Shown: one piece after another, positions 19,080 to 29,007 of the stretch
Numbering within the stretch: position 1 is the first letter of the stretch
Layout: every line of letters begins with the position of its first letter
Origin: Tubulanus polymorphus
Lineage: Eukaryota; Nemertea; Palaeonemertea; Tubulaniformes; Tubulanidae
Reading direction: 5' to 3'
Assembly: GCF_964204645.1 (NCBI RefSeq)
Contig: NC_134031.1
Location: forward strand, 7,354,501 to 7,418,500
DNA length: 64,000 bases
The notes under the pieces: generated by a model
The model's database searches: none
Seen by the model: only the letters and a program-made list of their open reading frames with translations
Told to the model about the DNA's origin: nothing
Made by a program: the position numbers and the translations under genes

Positions 19080-19563
19080 GCAACATAATGGAAGCCCTGA
19101 AACGACATTACGAATTACGTTTTACGAATTATGTTTTACGACTTACATTTTGGGCAATGATTTACCACTACATTTCAGTTCAATTTATCACAAGAGGTCA
19201 AGGTTGTGGTGCACTCTCCGTGTCGTGAATATTTAACTTTGGGTAGCAGGCAGAAGGCAGCACTGTATTGTGATCGGTTGTAATTTTTTGCCGAATGCTT
19301 CAACTAATAACGATGATAGATGACATTGCAGCCCAAACGCTTTGCTTTCAAATACAAATATATATTTTCATTATTAAAAGCTAAGACTTGTTCTGATCAT
19401 TACAATTGAACAATTGTATCCGCACTGATATGGAGTCCGATTCCTTTTTGTCTCCATGAACCCGAATAATTTCCAGTTTTATATCGTCTTAATCATCGTG
19501 CCCTTGCCAAACAGGACAGTGTCAGTGTTTGTAATTTATCAATTAATGAATCCGGGCGTATGC

Positions 19564-19640
19564 CACCTGAGGCTCAATATAGGGGGAAAAAAAGCTTAGC
19601 ACTTTTGTCATATTACTGTAATATAAGTAAGTAGTATAAA
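19564..19640. repeat. Left terminal inverted repeat of the 9-kb element
   Basis: It has the words AGGCTCAATATAGGGGG, AAAAAGCTTAGC, then CATATTACTGTAATATAAGT. The partner is 28480-28556. Confidence 0.8.
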
Positions 19641-20040
19641 TAATAACATTTATCTGCAATATCAAATTCTCCTTCATAATATTTCACTTCAATTTTCTTT
19701 TTTACTCCAATATAACATTTATTTAATTTACCATATATATGCTGTTTAGGTTTGCCTATGCAAACGTTCTGATGGGTATAATACCTCCATAATAATTAGT
19801 TATGGCTGGGAAATCGACCCAATTTGAACAAACAACAAGATAGGGATTGTAGAATATGAATTAGTTTATCTCATGTTTTTTTTCTAATACTAGATTTCTC
19901 TGGAAACAATTCAATATTTAGATTTTATTTGGATCACACTTGTACTTTCTCTCAAATCGCTTGCTAAAATGTTATCCCCTGTATAAAGTCGTTTTTCTAA
20001 TTCATCTCATTTGACGTTGTTTCATTGTTTACTAATATCC

Positions 20041-20260
20041 CTTTAGAGGCTACTCATTCGACGCAAACTTCTGGGCCTCCACCTTGATTTTCCCATTTCC
20101 GTTGAATGTCTCATTGATTTACTTGAACTGTGTTCCAAAAATGTGTATTTTCATTTTAAAGGGAATTTCTTTCAACAGATTTTTGGATTTGCCATGGGGA
20201 ATCCCCTCTCTCCTATTTTAGTCAATTTTTCAGACTTCACACAATTTTGATTTTGCTAAT
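20041..20260 (+). pseudogene. Penelope-like reverse transcriptase fragment
   Basis: One frame reads CLIDLLELCSKNVYFHFKGN followed by FGFAMGNPLSPILVNF, the Penelope RT core motif, then stops. The fragment lacks both ends. It probably entered the 9-kb element later and may have destroyed its 5' exons. Confidence 0.75.
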
Positions 20261-20740
20261 GCTGAATTAGTTTACCCTTGCAGCGATAAAACTAGAAGAC
20301 TTATTTTGGAATCTGCATTAATTATTGAAAATTCGAACAACGTTGTAAACCTTAACAATGGTTTTTCACCCCATAATAAACTTATATCAAAATTCCTCTG
20401 TAAACTGGTTAAACTCAACACTTGATTTCCCCTTTGATTATTTGTTATTTGTTCTCTCATCAATTTCGTCTCTGACTTAACTTGTATTCACCTTTGTTTT
20501 AATTTAAGTGCCCCTTAGTTTGTCTTTCTTTTTACTACTGACTTTAAGTTTCATTTATATTTATACTCACTATTGTTGTTTATAATCACCCCTTAGTTTG
20601 CTTCCCTTTAATCTATTTTAGCGTGTAACTGTTTCTACGTTAATTTTCCTTTAGTTTGTATCATCTCTGATTACTTGAATTAGTCTCTTTGTCTCTGGAT
20701 TGTATATATATCTCATAATTTCTGTAGTATCTCATTATTC

Positions 20741-20790
20741 CTGAAGATGACTATTAGGATATAGTCGAAACGTTGAAATAAACTACTATC
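20741..20790 (+). ncRNA. Hammerhead-ribozyme-like motif of a Penelope element
   Basis: CTGAAGA (fits the core CUGANGA), the stem GACTAT/ATAGTC and then GAAAC follow in order, as in the self-cleaving hammerheads of Penelope pseudo-LTRs. The flanking stems I and III are short or unclear, so activity is uncertain. Confidence 0.4.
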
Positions 20791-20919
20791 TCGAAGTTTC
20801 ATTTTCGGACTTTTTATTATCATTGTGGGATTCTCTCCTCATCGCGTCAACACGGATATTGTGTTCTACCTATCGTGATCAATTAAACCTAATTTTATAT
20901 GTGTTGACTCTAACTCTAT

Positions 20920-21220
20920 TCAACGTAAGTCTCGCATTGTTGTCCCTTTTTTAGACAAATTGAAACCCACTCTCAATGCGCTTAACACTGATATCATATT
21001 CAAGTATAATAACAAAATCTCTAGTCATTTATCCAAAAATAATACTCTGCCCAATACTCATGCCGGTGATTATAAAATCCCTTGCTCAGATTGTGATAAA
21101 TTTTATACAGGTGAAACTGGTCGCTCCCTCAGCATTCGTATTAAAGAGCAGAAGAAAGATATTATTAATCAAAAACCCCAAAGTGCTGTGGCTCATATTT
21201 CAATATTTAGATTATAGAAT
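20920..21220 (+). pseudogene. Penelope-like GIY-YIG endonuclease fragment
   Basis: The plus frame encodes VVPFLDKLKPTLNALNTDI and then AGDYKIPCSDCDKFYTGETG, RSLSIRIKEQK, matching the GIY-YIG endonuclease with its CxxC insert. In Penelope elements this follows the RT and nicks target DNA. It stops at 21217. Confidence 0.82.
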
Positions 21221-22019
21221 ATTAATTAGTCCTATAATCTAAGAAAACAATGAACTACATTTCGGTATACACGCTGAATTCAGTTCATGCCCATTTAATT
21301 GCAACAATGGCCTTCGAACAATACACTAAAATTAACATTATATTTTGTTTTGCTCAATCAACTACTTTTAAACGATAGAACTTTGGTTTATTTGAGTATA
21401 GCCTGTAAATTCAAACTGGGGGGGAGGACAAATTCTAAAAATTTATATTACTTATAAGTTCCTAATTGTTGTCTCTCAGGCATAAACCCATTAGATCTAG
21501 GGTCTGGAGGTATTTTGGAAACATATGAGGGTATTCCGGGTGGAGGGATTCTGGGTGTGAGATATTTGGGTGGAGGTATTTTGGGCGGAGGTATTATGAC
21601 CCGGATTCGGTGCAAGCAGTTTTCATTTTAGTTATTTTTGACAATATGCACTCAATGATTTGATGGTGAACCACAGGGCCATTGGACCTTTATTTATAAT
21701 CATCATTATCAAAATAATCTTCACCTAAAATATCATGATTTATATTTCTAATATGATTTTATATTCTAAATGTTGTTTATGATATCTTTTGTTACATGAC
21801 ATCCTTTTTCATTCTTACCTTTATATATGATTAGATATGAAATCACCATGAGTGGCTTAGAATGGGACCACAAAATGCTTAGCTTTTAGTCGAGTTACAT
21901 GTAACTTGTAACATTATATATGATGGGCAGTCAGCCCCTGATATTACATATAACCTTTTATCTCAATCTGGAAAAAGTGAAATATGAGTGAAATCCCTGT
22001 TCTTCATAGTGAAACGTAA

Positions 22020-22615
22020 GTGAATAATTGTAACACCCTGTAACATCTGTAACGCTATATGAAACAGTAGTAACTAAAAGTGAAAAATCTGTAACGCTAT
22101 ATAACACACTGTAACAAGGGTGTAACAGGCTGTAACGCCCTGTAACAAGATGTGAAACCCCTGTAACTCAAAGTGTAACGCCCTGTAACACCATGTGAAA
22201 CCCCTGTAACTCGAAGTGAAATATGTGTAACGCTATGTAACACCCTGTAACAAGGGTGTAACAGGCTGAAAGGTTGAGTGAAACAGGCTGTGACACTCTG
22301 TAACACCATGTGAAATCCTTGTAAATGAAATATGTGTAACGCTATGTAACACCCTGTAACAAGGGTGTAACAGGCTGTAACGCCCTGTAAAACCATGTGA
22401 AACCCCTGTAACTCAAAGTGAAATATGTGTAACGCTATGTAACACCCTGTAACAAGGGTGTAACAGGCTGAAAGGTTGAGTGAAACAGGCTGTAACACTC
22501 TGTAACACCATGTGAAATCCTTGTAAATGAAATATGTGTAACGCTATGTAACACCCTGTAACAAGGGTGTAACAGGCTGTAACGCCCCATAACGCTATAT
22601 GAAACCCCTGCAACT
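22020..22615 (-). repeat. 93-bp tandem repeats, left array
   Basis: About six units rich in GTAACA/GTGAAA words, read here as AACACCCTGTAACAAGGG and AAACCCCTGTAACTC. They are inverted relative to the right array. Long open frames across them are an artefact of the regular period (93 = 31 codons). Confidence 0.9.
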
Positions 22616-23850
22616 CAAAGCACATATTTCACTTTTAGTTACTAGGGTTTCACATGGTGTTACAGGGCGTTACAGCCTTGTTACAGGGTGTTACATAGCG
22701 TTACACATATTTCACTTTGAGTTACAGGGGTTTCACATGGTGTTACGGGGCGTTACAGCCTGTTACACCATTGTTACAGGGTGTTATATAGCGTTACACA
22801 TATTTCACTTTGAGTTACAGGGGTTTCACATGGTGTTACAGGGTGTTACAGCCTGTTACACCATTATTACAGGGTGTTACATAGCGTTACACATATTTCA
22901 CTTTGAGTTACAGAGGTTTCACATGGTGTTACAGGGCGTTACAGCCTGTTACACCCTTGTTACGGGGTGTAACATAGCGTTACACATATTTCACTTTGAG
23001 TTACAGGGGTTTCACATGGTGTTACAGGGCGTTACAGCCCGTTACACCATTGTTACAGTGTGTTACATAGTGTAACACATATTTCACTTTGAGTTACAGG
23101 GGTTTCACATGGTGTTACAGGGCGTTACAGCCTGTTACACCCTTGTTACAGGGTGTTACATAGCGTTACACACATTTCACTTTTAGTTACTAGGGTTTCA
23201 CATAGAGTTACAGGGCGTTACAGCCTGTTACACCCTTGTTACAGGGTGTTACATAGCGTTACACATATTTCACTTTTAGTTACTAGGGTTTCACATAGTG
23301 TTACAGGGCGTTACAGCCTGTTACACCCTTGTTACAGGGTGTTACATAGCGTTACACATATTTCACTTTTAGTTACTAGGGTTTCACATGGTGTTACAGG
23401 GCGTTTCAGCCTGTTACACCCTTGTTACAGGGTGTTACATAGTGTTACACATATTTCACTTTTAGTTACTAGGGTTTCACATGGTGTTACGGGGCGTTAC
23501 AGCCTGTTACACCCTTGTTACAGGGTGTTACATAGCGTTACACATATTTCACTTTTAGTTACAGGGGTTTCACATGGTGTTACGGGGCGTTACAGCCTGT
23601 TACACCATTGTTACAGGGTGTTACATAGCGTTACACATATTTCACTTTGAGTTACAGGGGTTTCACATGGTGTTACAGGGCGTTACAGCCTGTTACACCA
23701 TTATTACAGGGTGTTACATAGCGTTACACATATTTCACTTTGAGTTACAGGGGTTTCACATGGTGTTACAGGGCGTTACAGCCTGTTACACCATTGTTAC
23801 AGTGTGTTACATAGCGTTACACATATTTCACTTTGAGTTACAGGGGTTTC
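22616..23850 (+). repeat. 93-bp tandem repeats, right array
   Basis: About thirteen units with starts 92-94 bp apart, marked by GGTTTCACATGGTGTTACA at 22648, 22731, 22823, 22917, 23010, 23103 and on. The unit is a string of GTTACA words with different spacers. The array is in inverted orientation to the left one, pointing to the opposite end of the element. Confidence 0.92.
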
Positions 23851-24358
23851 AGACTTTTATTGCATTAGGATATTTGCATTCTTTGACAGTTTCGCAAAGT
23901 AGATTATATGAGGTTACAACGCGAAAATATCCTTTTGGCTTTCCAAAAATGAAGTACGACCTAATGTTACATGTTACTTGTAACTTGATGGGAAGTTAAG
24001 CATTTCTCTGTCCCATTTTAAGCCTTATATAGAAATCACCAGAACATAATTCTTCAGTATCTTCACTAGATAATCTATCTTCACCGATAATCATACATAT
24101 ATATGAAATTATTAGAGAAATAGGGAATATATGTTTTCATATCAGAGGTTGAAGAGGAGAATTAGAAAATATGAAAATATTTAATGAAACTATCATATAC
24201 CAACGTATTTACTAGACAGATTTCATAGATTACGAACCATGATTTTTGATTATATATATTTTCATATATCACTTTTATGCTTATATTCTATCCCTTTTTT
24301 TCTGTACCGTATATATGCTGTGTGATATTACTCACTAGATCATTCTTTTTATTTACAG

Positions 24359-26195
24359 AAAATGTTATGTACCTGCAGAGCAGAATACTGGTCTGGCATG
24401 GTTTTCAGAAGTTGTGCCGCAATTTTCCGGGCTTGTTTTTAATGACAAAGCCAGTGGATTATTTAGGGATCATCTGTTCACCAAGTGTGAGGTAACTATT
24501 TTCATCATAATATGACTTGGTTCACCAACAATGTACAAATAGGTGTATGAATTAGTCCTATTCTAGCTAATCTATTTCTAGAACATGAGTCTGAAATATT
24601 GCCATTTTTCACTGATATTCTCTTTAACTTTTGTCATTTAACTTATATTCAATGTTATTTCGATTGTAGTGCCAGATTGCAGTTAGTCTTTTTTTATATC
24701 TTATTGGTTTGTTGCATGGTCTTTCCTTACAGGCATTTCAGTCAATGCAACATAAAAAACTTCAGCTTTCTCACATTGTTGGGCAGCAAAACAAGCCAGT
24801 GTGGGTTTTAGGCCCTGATCTACAAGTGGACTCTAGTGGTGATAGGATAGCCATCGAAGACCAAGAGTACTTCTGGTTGGGGTGTGTATGCATTTTGTTT
24901 TCTGTCTGTTGAGTCATAGTGTAATGTACTGACTTGCAGATTGATGTTTTGATGTTTTTCTTCCAGTTATAATAAGAATGTCTTGTTAAACCCGTGCCCG
25001 GTAACACTTGGTGGCCAGGAGGCTCTTGAACGCGTGTGGGGGTTGGCCCCCGATGGAAAAAACAGAGTGCCGTACCTCTTAACTATGGCTGCAGCAGCTA
25101 CAGCTCTTCATTCAAGGACACTGCGTTCGAAATATGGTGTTCAACCAACATTCATCCTATTTTCAAAAGAAACAGGGACTGGTGAGTACTGCATGAAATA
25201 TGTTTTCAAAATTGAATAGGTGATTATGATTGTGTTCAATGATTCTACATTCTTTATAGGGAAAACAACAGCTATGACAGCGGCACTGTCAATGTGTGGC
25301 GCAATGCATAACATTTTTTCGAATGCCACCTCCACCGCCTACATTTTGCAAAAGGCAGCTAATACCACATTGCCGATTGGATATGATGACTGCTCGTCAG
25401 CTAAAATACAAGAAAATGTATCGGTGGCATTTTTTGATGGAAAGAACGCGGGGACGAAATCATCTGGAGAACTATCTGTACAGGCAGGCGTCCTCATTAC
25501 CACAAATCTCGAGACAGCGCCTAGTGCCAGGTATGAATTTTGTTGTACATACATGTACTAATGTCTGTGATATGTTTATTGACTTTACATGTATAGCTTA
25601 AGTCATTCCCTTTTTTTATTGCAGACTATCAGATAGAACCATTTTCATCCCATTTTTTCGATGTGAGAAAATGATGTCAGACCCAATTGCCGTCCAGGCC
25701 GTCATCAGGAGATCAGACCAGGCAATTGATCTGATGATTGCCCTATACGACGTAGTAATTAGTGATCGGGCAGAAAATGTCATACAAAAGTTAACCAAAC
25801 TAACACGTGAAGTACTAGGATTACGAACAAGAGTTTGTTATAATTACGCAATCTTGTTATTCATAACAAAAATGGTAAGATTTTCTTCGTTAACGCCAGC
25901 ATAATATTATTGGTTGGAATTTCTACCATTATAATTTCTTATTTTAGCTATGTAAACGTCTACCGATCGAATTTGAAGATGTGAAAACTTTCCTTAAAGA
26001 TTCCTGGAAGGAAAAACTTGCACATGTGTATGCCGGTAATGAATCAACAATTCAACTGTTTGCGCATAGGCTAATCAAAGAAAAAGAAAAGGTAAATTAA
26101 TATACCGTATATGCTATTGATTTTATCGAGTTGATTGATAAGTAAGTTGAATTCGAACGTTGTTTTTGTTTTCACAGATACGCAGATACACATGA
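24359..26195 (+). CDS. P-loop ATPase, DUF927/D5-helicase-like (5' end missing)
   Basis: Exons 24359-24491, 24733-24881, 24967-25181, 25260-25530, 25625-25874, 25948-26091 and 26178-26195 join in phase with GT-AG introns of 74-241 bp. The joined frame has about 392 codons and no internal stop. The product shows a Walker A (KETGTGKTTA) split by intron 3, a Walker B-like LPIGYDD and a possible sensor (VLITTNLE). This order resembles the DUF927 / D5-like helicase ATPases; the exact family is my inference. It ends IRRYT-stop. The first exon seen begins in mid-codon, so at least one upstream exon is missing, perhaps destroyed by the 2.2-kb insertion that ends 330 bp upstream. The intact frame suggests recent activity or selection. 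Confidence 0.72.
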
Positions 26196-26218
26196 TTTGT
26201 GAAATCTAGAGGCCAAGA

Positions 26219-27079
26219 ATGCCTTGCGGTCAATTTGACAGAAATGCCTCCCATGAGGGCGTAGATATAGCCCGTTTGAGGAGGATGACAGAAGAATGTG
26301 GTGGCAGGAATAATGCTGTTGTTCAAATGCCAAGTAAGTATGAATAAACTATATATCAAGTATAATGAATGCTATTATGTATGACTGTCTATCATTTCAT
26401 TTTTACTTTTTAGCGGGATATAACGGTGATACAAGGGCGAAAAGATGCTCACTTATACCTTGTTCATCATTTGCAGAGAGCATTTTGATAAAAATTAATA
26501 AAGGTAAGATAAAGAATTCACAGGCATACTTATCGATATCTAAATTAGTATTTTTTCTATTCTTTTACTTGTATATTTTCAGTGCATGAAAGTGAATATG
26601 CTTCGTCTGAAAATGACTCAAACGATGAAAATGAGATAATGAATTCTGAGAACGAGAATGTAAGGCATGGAGACGATGAAGATTTGCAAAATAGCGTTGG
26701 CGAGAATGAACCGCAGGATGACGAGAATGAACCGCAGGATGACAAGAATGAACCACAGGAGGACGAGAATGAACCGCAGGAGGACGAGAATGAACGACAT
26801 GGGGACGATGAATTGCAAAATAGCGTTGGCGAGAATGAACTGCAGGAGGACAATGATGATCAATCACAAAGCATTGTGGACGAGCTAGAAAGACTGAATG
26901 TTGTTGAGGTAGCAACTACTGATATCTGTCCACCGGACCTTTGAACAACTATGACAGGACAGATGATACAATGCGATAGATGTAATCAATGGAACCATTG
27001 GAAATGTATTAAAATGACCCGTACAGATTACAAGGCTGCTTGCGTACCGGGACACTGTTTCGTATGTGTGAGATGCTAG
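26219..27079 (+). CDS. Acidic repeat protein with PHD-like zinc-finger tail after an in-frame TGA
   Basis: Exons 26219-26333, 26414-26503 and 26583-26944 join in phase. The first shares an exon with the end of the ATPase gene. The product starts MPCGQFDRNASHEGVD. It has an N-terminal part with several cysteines and then a strongly acidic stretch with six NE(P/R/L)Q-type repeats (such as ENEPQDDENEPQ), and ends ATTDICPPDL at TGA 26942-26944. In the same frame the next 44 codons read TTMTGQMIQCDRCNQWNHWK and on to CFVCVRC-TAG: a PHD-type treble-clef finger (CxxC, HxxC, CxxC) lacking a complete first cysteine pair. The TGA may be a mutation, a readthrough site or a splice difference. Its role next to the ATPase is unknown. 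Confidence 0.62.
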
Positions 27080-27080
27080 A

Positions 27081-27680
27081 TGTCAAATGCATTACAATCA
27101 TTCACAGGTGTAAATTATATTACTATGCGACATTATATTACATTTTTTTACATGTTTTTTTGTGAATTTGTATTAATTTTAAAATACTCAGAAATCATTG
27201 TTTTTTATCAGGGTTTTGTACCCTATACTACTTCTAATACCCTTCTGTTATTTATCATTTACACATTCCTACAATCACCATATAACTGTGCATAATTTAC
27301 TGTCCTAGATTTTAATTACTAAACATATCTGTGCATTACCTGTACATATTCCTTCATTTGTTAGTATTTGAATTTTCACTGTTATAATTAAATTGTCAAA
27401 TGCACTACAATCATTCAGAGGTGTAAATTGCATTACATTATACTACTATGCGACATGTTTTTTTGTGAATTTGTTTTAATTTTAGTTTGCTCAGAAATCA
27501 TGTTTTTATCAGGGTTTTGTACCATATGCTACTTCTAATATTTATCATTTAGACATACATTCTTACAATTACCTTATATACTGCATAATTTACTGTCCTA
27601 GATTTAAATTACTAAACATTTCATTTGTGCATTACTTGTACATATTCCTTCATTCTTTGAATTTTCATTTTATCACGTGT
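27081..27680. repeat. Tandem duplication (~312 bp) downstream of the acidic-protein gene
   Basis: TGTCAAATGCATTACAATCA at 27081 recurs at 27393. The following ~290 bp match in order (GTGTAAATT, TTTTTTTGTGAATTTG, ATCAGGGTTTTGTACC, CATTTGTGCATTAC) with small deletions. Confidence 0.85.
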
Positions 27681-27867
27681 CATTTCTAATAATCATAATT
27701 ATCATCAATTACTGTGCAAATTTTACTGTCCTACATGTATAATCATATTACTCACTAATTAAATACACATTGCATACCTACCTACGTACTTCAATCTTCA
27801 TTTATTTTTCAAAAGTTGCGTTCTTTTTTGGTAAATTCATACGGATTGCTTCATACAGTGGAACCCC

Positions 27868-28395
27868 ATTACTATAGATTACTATGCGTTATGTCTCATT
27901 ACTTCATATTACTATAGATTACTATGCGTTACGTCTTATTACTTCATATTACTATAGATTACTATCCATTACATGTTATTACTTCATATTACTATAGATT
28001 ACTATCCATTACATGTTATTACTTCATATTACTATAGATTACTATCCATTACGTCTTATTACTTCATATTACTTTAGATTACTATCCATTACGTCTTATT
28101 ACTTCATATTACTATAGATTACTATCTATTACATGTTATTACTTCATATTACTATAGATTACTATCCATTACATGTTATTACTTCATATTACTATAGATT
28201 ACTATGCATTACATGTTATCACTTTATATTACTATAGATTACTATCCATTACATGTTATTACTTCATATTACTATAGATTACTATCCATTACGTCTTATT
28301 ACTTCATATTACTATAGATTACTATGCGTTACGTCTTATTACTTCATATTACTATAGATTACTATGCATTACATGTTATTACTTCATATTGCTGG
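27868..28395. repeat. 40-bp tandem array in the right subterminal region
   Basis: About thirteen units of 40 bp, each ATTACTATAGATTACTATNC then ATTACATGTTATTACTTCAT or a close variant. ATTAC recurs four times per unit. Placement next to the terminal repeat suggests binding sites for the mobilising protein. Confidence 0.92.
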
Positions 28396-28479
28396 ACAAT
28401 ACTACGTTACTGTCACACCACACTATATCAGATTAAAATACAATACTTTTCTACTGAAAAAATTTCATTCGCATTCAAT

Positions 28480-28556
28480 ATCACTTGAATTACTTATATT
28501 ACAGTAATATGAAAAAAGTTTTAAGCTTTTTCCCCCCTATAATGAGCCTTATATAG
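28480..28556. repeat. Right terminal inverted repeat of the 9-kb element
   Basis: ACTTATATTACAGTAATATG, then AAGCTTTTTCCCCCCTATAATGAGCCT; this is the complement of 19564-19640. Confidence 0.8.
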
Positions 28557-29007
28557 CGTATGCAGGCTGAATCTCTATACTTTTAATCATTTGAAATTAT
28601 CATAAGTCACTTTTTGCCTTCCTTGGTCTATTACTTGTAATAAAAAATGCATACGAAACTCCCTTAATTTCACGGATATAACGTGTATATATTTCGAAAT
28701 GCAAAATAAATTCAGTCAGATTCATTCTTCGCCATGATTCGACCTCATTGCAAAGCCCGTGTTTTTCCGAAAAACTTTTGAAGCAATAGCCAATAAGTCA
28801 ATGGAAAACGTTCGTAAAACGTAAGTCGTAATTCGTAAAACGTAATTGTGTAAGACCTTAACCTCGCGCGACATACGAAATGCAGGAGGCACATATGGTA
28901 ATTAGTTAACCTAACTCGTAATTAATTTGCAAAAAACGTAACTCGTAATTCGTAAAACAACGTAATTCGTAAAACGTAATGTCGTTTCAGGGCTTCCATG
29001 CAACATA

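Follow-up and report, generated by a model that had tools for sequence, protein, structure and literature searches.

Among described mobile elements, the closest comparison for the element analyzed here is the Zisupton/KDZ group, for which the available portions of published accounts give target-site duplications of 8 bp in Zisupton and 7 bp in Kyakuja (PMC12730594), 8 bp in KDZ1 and 4–8 bp in KDZ2 and KDZ3 (PMC12810828), and no detected duplication in Pristionchus Zisupton (PMC9297572); the available part of the first of these also gives duplications of usually 8 bp for hAT elements (PMC12730594). A further point of comparison is the RAG2-type second protein with a C-terminal PHD finger, as described in the accessible text of PMC4411706. 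We analyzed a window of 64,000 nucleotides of the Tubulanus polymorphus genome (contig NC_134031.1, positions 7,354,501 to 7,418,500) that contains a 9-kb element with inverted ends and a gene encoding a DUF927-like P-loop ATPase, an acidic repeat and a PHD finger. Sequence comparison across this genome suggests, with somewhat better than even confidence, that the element belongs to a divergent KDZ-type cut-and-paste transposon equipped with an ATPase–PHD accessory protein, and that the window holds a decayed, non-autonomous copy.

Ends and gene of the window element

The window element, with its inverted ends and flanking duplication, is real. Its features are given below in window coordinates; here and throughout, C-numbers denote contigs of the T. 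polymorphus genome, L-numbers denote stretches extracted from that genome, and family 1 is the end family of the window element.

19556–19563, no strand: left copy of the 8-bp target-site duplication GCGTATGC (flank comparison)
19564–19630, plus strand: left terminal inverted repeat, CACCTGAGGCTCAATATAGGGGG... (end alignment, recurrence in the genome)
24359–26091, plus strand: ATPase exons (DUF927 match)
26178–26333, plus strand: linker exon from the ATPase to the acidic part, with an in-frame stop and a frameshift in the window (homologous exons in other copies)
26414–26505, plus strand: second linker exon (homology to other copies)
26583–26944, plus strand: acidic repeat region, terminated by an in-frame TGA (composition, reading frame)
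26945–27079, plus strand: PHD-finger region, in unchanged frame after the stop (profile match, C4 homologue)
27868–28390, plus strand: subterminal 40-bp minisatellite, common to other family-1 copies (copy comparison)
28490–28555, minus strand: right terminal inverted repeat, TATATAAGGCTCATTATAGGGGGG... on the minus strand (end alignment, recurrence in the genome)
28556–28563, no strand: right copy of the duplication GCGTATGC (flank comparison)

An earlier sequence-only reading of this DNA had proposed matching inverted ends of about 60 bp, and these are borne out: local alignment of 19564–19644 with the reverse complement of 28476–28555 scores 49, compared with 17 for the best of 1,000 random window pairs, and the ends recur in the genome. 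The duplication proposed alongside them, CGTATGC, is present and exact at both flanks, and its length is 8 bp, one base more than had been noted; the right end of the element stops at 28555. The outermost bases of the two ends are unlike each other (CACCTG and TATATA), and both types recur in the genome. The end motif has 33 genome matches at no more than one mismatch, 14 of them exact, compared with a single match for the reversed control. Of the 33, six make up a single, probably unrelated tandem array on C8. Matches to the 71-bp left end number 29 in the genome.

All coding exons lie on the plus strand between the inverted ends, from 24359 to 27079, with ATPase exons at about 24359–24491, 24733–24881, 24967–25180, 25260–25530, 25625–25878 and 25948–26091. 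An AG acceptor is present at each of the nine exons, and a GT donor lies within 3 bp of the set end at each of the eight internal exons. The proposed DUF927-like ATPase is upheld by P-loop motifs and by a match to DUF927 (PF06048) at 27.4 bits, over the cut-off of 22.6 and covering profile positions 173–256 of 284; the C4 homologue reaches only 14.4 bits against the same profile. Further matches, all weak, suggest kinship with primase–helicase ATPases: PHROG 8841 (primase/helicase; E value 5.3e-7) and the structures 5dgk ('Active helicase', E value 0.066) and 8tch (staphylococcal 'Pathogenicity island protein', E value 0.016). A GTGKT motif, a DD pair, a TN pair and an arginine are kept in all four aligned ATPases, one of which, from C10, is a hand-assembled sequence. 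We also considered a viral origin of the ATPase and rejected it, as none of 457 pattern matches in viral contigs was confirmed. The acidic region contains 45 D/E against 4 K/R in 120 residues, and the PHD region scores 21.8 bits, under the cut-off of 24 that its C4 homologue exceeds with 35 bits.

The sequence-only reading had placed the ATPase and PHD coding exons wholly between the ends, which holds, and had assigned them to two genes with intact frames, which does not. In L005, the C5 copy, the exon following the ATPase is open throughout the linker, and linker exons homologous to those of the window are present in C4, C8 and C10; these comparisons indicate that ATPase, linker, acidic repeat and PHD finger form a single multi-exon gene. 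In the window this gene is a pseudogene, since it carries an in-frame stop and a frameshift in the linker exon and a further in-frame stop ahead of the PHD region.

Recurrence of the ends and the gene in the genome

Genome searches were run exon by exon on this one genome, and the counts they give are lower bounds. ATPase matches from two protein searches fall at eight loci, namely the window, C5:9973k, C6:16807k, C4:17000k, C10:8639k, C2:17548k (a distant match), C2:10161k and C8:6835k, with PHD matches accompanying five of them (window, C4, C10, C8 at a distance of 30 kb, and C2:10167537). A DUF927 family search of the genome returned zero matches. As the ATPase of the window itself also escaped it, spliced copies are beyond the sensitivity of this search and its result is uninformative. 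A second end family, family 2, is defined by the CATGAG... and TATATA... ends of an element nested inside the window element, and has 23 left and 17 right genome matches. These make ten opposed pairs, eight of them short (0.46–2.2 kb, the nested element included) and two long, at C4:16953898-17005679 (51.8 kb) and C8:about 6798656-6839464 (40.8 kb), and both long pairs enclose ATPase and PHD. The sequence-only reading had proposed looking for other loci with both ends, and the gene indeed recurs inside these two copies, whose ends are related to those of the window element. It is contained in all three of the opposed pairs that are clear and exceed 3 kb (window, C4 and C8). Because it recurs between related ends in C4 and C8, we regard the gene as native to the transposon lineage and not as a one-off capture. 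No locus among those extracted has the same ends with an ordinary transposase replacing ATPase and PHD.

Capture of a host ATPase–PHD gene by a transposon would account for the introns and host-like splice sites of the gene, and for the five of eight ATPase loci at which no intact ends were found within the stretches extracted. We consider this explanation very improbable: related ends of two families enclose the gene, with proteins about 45–53% identical between the families, and no conserved host locus was recognized among the eight. KDZ-type elements are themselves multi-exonic, moreover, according to the part of PMC9297572 available.

DNA comparison of the C4 and C8 copies reveals a common backbone of right end with satellite, ATPase 3′ part, linker, acidic/PHD region and left end. 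In C4 the linker exon comes immediately after the ATPase, but in C8 about 29 kb separate the two, and we therefore take the C8 gene to have been split by a later insertion. This insertion within the ATPase–PHD gene measures 28.8 kb (C8:6806495-6835338; L049–L052 and L012) and has short CCCAGCTA-like inverted ends. As later insertions are included, the 41- and 52-kb sizes of the two copies are not the element's own. The ATPase match starts mid-gene beside satellite in C8 and at the locus labelled C2b, which makes lost 5′ sequence plausible in both; a deletion junction common to the two was ruled out, as their junctions differ. The C2:10161k ATPase locus adjoins family-2 satellite. Separately, we observed that the 28.8-kb stretch, which may be a single large element or a nest of several, holds a 668-aa Mutator-like (PF20700) open reading frame (ORF) and an unassigned, transposase-looking ORF of 597 aa, and that a tandem unit of about 3.56 kb, in at least three copies, lies inside the C4 element (L046 and L047, C4:16968000-16975900).

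We compared duplications at 16 pairs of ends, comprising the window element, the nested element, C4, C8, seven short family-2 pairs and five short family-1 pairs, with L020, L027 and L032 left out. Exact abutting 8-bp duplications flank seven of the 16: the window element, the nested element, C4 (CCTCCTGA at both ends), the 658-bp family-1 pair L017 (GGTTTCTC) and three short family-2 pairs. The other short family-2 pairs match at 6 of 8 bp (one pair), have displaced or partial duplications (two pairs) or have none (one pair), and among the other short family-1 pairs L021 has a duplication of about 7 bp and L018, L019 and L028 have none. In two family-2 copies, L065/L066 (C1:14993972-14994728) and C8:6798656-6839464, duplicated 8-mers lie about 6–8 bp off the right end and look as if a few extra bases had been carried at one end.

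Much of the window element's 9 kb consists of later insertions and not of the original element, as the following two features illustrate.

21847–24031, plus strand: nested non-autonomous relative of family 2, with a 93-bp minisatellite in inverted arrays (own ends, own duplication)
20879–21217, plus strand: probable retroelement fragment with a 112-aa, GIY-YIG/Penelope-like ORF, an insertion outside the element's own gene set (reading frame)

The nested element is flanked by its own 8-bp duplication GAAATCAC at 21839–21846 and 24032–24039. The sequence from about 20.2 to 21.2 kb in the window has the look of a retroelement fragment.

A candidate transposase and its alternatives

The assignment to KDZ comes from the C4 copy, where the strand that encodes the ATPase carries further exons upstream of it, between about L048:9722 and L003:2277. 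When these exons are joined by hand at credible splice junctions, with X standing for one stop and for 203 bp of unread sequence, they score 28.3 bits against CxC5 (PF18718, 'associated with KDZ transposases'), over the cut-off of 26.9 (E value 2.2e-6), and 22.4 bits against KDZ (PF18758; E value 1.1e-4). A first, cruder join had given 20.8 bits for CxC5 and 23.8 bits for KDZ (E value 4.3e-5). By eye, candidate catalytic D, D and E positions fall in FDGLWKL, YDNMC and EQTFVW, respectively. A canonical KDZ family in this genome, over the Pfam cut-off, is listed with five near-identical copies (C2:16360582, C8:2544095, C6:11058925, C12:8555215 and C4:6656898) whose scores are the same or almost so; an alignment of two of them gives 99.6% identity over 5.2 kb, and this near-identity indicates that KDZ elements have recently been active here.

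The sequence-only reading had favored an undescribed superfamily without a DDE transposase, an idea that the same-strand CxC5/KDZ-like exons upstream of the C4 ATPase do not support, and had mentioned as an alternative a transposase in lost 5′ sequence. The C4 exons fit that alternative, in a single copy and with a sub-threshold KDZ match. If the superfamily were nonetheless undescribed, the ATPase–PHD protein would be all or an essential part of the mobilizing machinery, and the KDZ-like gene of C4, a copy full of insertions, would be an unrelated nested insertion; ATPase/PHD is indeed the only gene common to the three clear long pairs, with the KDZ-like gene in one. We regard this as unlikely, given the position and strand of the C4 exons and the mid-gene start of the ATPase beside satellite in C8 and C2b. 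Fixed-length duplications and inverted ends are, moreover, usual for DDE-type transposases, and DUF927-type ATPases are not known to have strand-transfer activity.

Duplications of 8 bp are not unique to KDZ and are also made by P-like elements, so another known superfamily with this length, such as hAT- or P-like elements, might mobilize the family, with the KDZ-like and ATPase–PHD genes as cargo or neighbors. C8 does hold other transposase ORFs, including two that are Mutator-like (PF20700). One of these, the 668-aa ORF, lies in the 28.8-kb stretch, which C4 lacks, and the other, of 624 aa, is located close to the left end in sequence confined to C8; we rejected the PF20700 ORFs as the transposase since they are confined to C8-only stretches. 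No known transposase was found in the window or, by DNA comparison only, in the 1.5 kb inside other family-1 ends. We accordingly hold mobilization by another superfamily to be quite unlikely.

Several observations weigh against a KDZ-type transposon with an ATPase–PHD accessory gene. The KDZ match is under its cut-off of 26.6 and needed hand-joining, and tested singly the C4 upstream exons match no Pfam family. The assignment draws on one insertion-rich copy: C4 is the only locus at which a KDZ-like gene accompanies the ATPase, and since C4 is crowded with insertions this gene might itself be nested. The window yielded no match to the C4-type transposase at E values up to 0.5, and neither did C8. 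Beyond C4, a two-exon transposase query matched only C10:13513688 and C12:8937152, both fragments with no ATPase within about 3.7 kb downstream; the C12 fragment has a weak PHD-like match (E value 2.6e-4) on the opposite strand. The canonical KDZ family was rejected as a direct source, as two of two copies examined match neither the ATPase nor the PHD nor the C4 transposase queries. CxC5 is not exclusive to KDZ elements and is weakened as a KDZ marker because in Pleurotus, as far as the available part of PMC7641404 goes, CxC5/CxC6 ORFs were never beside intact KDZ elements, which had CxC2, and KDZ duplications vary in length and are not always 8 bp.

The ends raise difficulties of their own. 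Nine of the 16 compared pairs have no exact abutting 8-bp duplication, among them C8: a small deletion lies within its left end, and TAACGAGA directly adjoins that end but is displaced outward by 8 bp at the right end. The 3′ end of the gene points toward the TATATA end in the window and toward the CATGAG end in C4 and C8, and because of these opposite orientations in families 1 and 2 we assume an inversion between repeats near the ends. A doubtful fourth long pair, C7:6175724-6185648, with partial end matches, shows no ATPase match, with 1.7 kb extracted per side (L030 and L036), and more probably consists of two separate small copies. With these points counted, we still prefer the divergent KDZ-type transposon with its accessory gene.

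Other mobile elements were encountered beside the ATPase loci and elsewhere. A SWIM-like exon upstream of the C6 ATPase was set aside as not belonging to this transposon; its relatives include a separate 5.55-kb element (C1:15907308-15912863, L013/L014, and C1:23315189-23320741, L015/L016) whose two aligned copies are 99.9% identical. With 13 equal-scoring copies of one exon, this element has been recently active; it carries SWIM-like, YqaJ-like and other-strand DDE-like ORFs and is presumably ISL2EU-like. A DUF7869 ORF downstream of the C2b ATPase was likewise rejected as a partner, as it has four near-identical copies of which the other three have no ATPase match listed. This 720-aa ORF, a sub-threshold DUF7869 match, is found at L011:7449-9608, C4:16759925, C8:6131304 and C10:8800460-8802618, has many diverged relatives besides these copies, and represents a DDE-like transposon family that is poorly named and has been active recently. 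L053:1-5589 contains a retroelement in two inverted copies, one with an open 833-aa ORF, which we take to be Penelope-like.

Proposed mechanism and comparison with known systems

The lineage would be a cut-and-paste DNA transposon producing 8-bp target duplications, with fuller copies predicted to carry two genes on the same strand: a transposase with CxC5 and a KDZ core and, downstream, an accessory protein ordered as DUF927-like P-loop ATPase, linker, acidic repeat and C-terminal PHD finger. The KDZ-type transposase would bind and cut the ends of about 66 bp, and the ATPase–PHD protein would assist; its most likely role would be that of an ATP-dependent helper for target choice or for assembly of the complex, and its PHD finger would read chromatin. 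That the KDZ-like gene of C4 mobilizes the family is an inference, and so is every functional role given here. Complex assembly or chromatin-guided target choice is favored over a role in replication because the acidic stretch and PHD finger recall RAG2. The window copy, its transposase lost and its accessory gene a pseudogene, would be mobile only with a transposase supplied from elsewhere. A more specific and tentative possibility, drawn by analogy, is a two-part machinery in which a KDZ-type transposase works with a separate, chromatin-reading and ATP-driven helper built from P-loop ATPase, acidic hinge and PHD finger. The analogy is to bacterial TnsC/MuB-type target-choice ATPases and to the acidic hinge and PHD finger of RAG2, with no homology claimed.

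The lineage resembles Zisupton/KDZ elements in its 8-bp duplications, inverted ends and long multi-exon elements, and in the CxC5 and sub-threshold KDZ matches of its C4 copy. It differs from them in carrying a DUF927-like ATPase–acidic–PHD gene and in a divergent C4 transposase core under the Pfam cut-off, and it differs likewise from the canonical KDZ family of the same genome, in which two of two copies examined lack this gene. The P-loop ATPase module is shared with DUF927-type primase–helicase ATPases of bacterial mobile elements and phages, whereas the protein described here is eukaryotic and spliced and continues into an acidic repeat and a PHD finger, with no primase part seen. Few eukaryotic cut-and-paste transposons are known to have a dedicated ATPase helper. 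No description of an ATPase–PHD type accessory gene in KDZ elements was found in the literature searched, including the available parts of PMC12730594, PMC9297572, PMC7641404 and PMC12810828. At a minimum, the present analysis documents an accessory gene that this literature did not show for KDZ elements, and it offers a possible explanation for orphan ATPase/PHD genes within repeats.

The pairing of a transposase with a second protein ending in a PHD finger is shared with RAG1–RAG2/TransibVDJ, and in RAG2 an acidic hinge region also lies ahead of the PHD finger. The two systems differ in having an ATPase here in place of the kelch propeller, a KDZ-like in place of a Transib transposase, and an 8-bp duplication in place of the 5 bp of Transib. 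If the ATPase–PHD protein guides insertion through histone marks, it would parallel RAG2 independently and would offer a system in which chromatin-guided integration can be tested.

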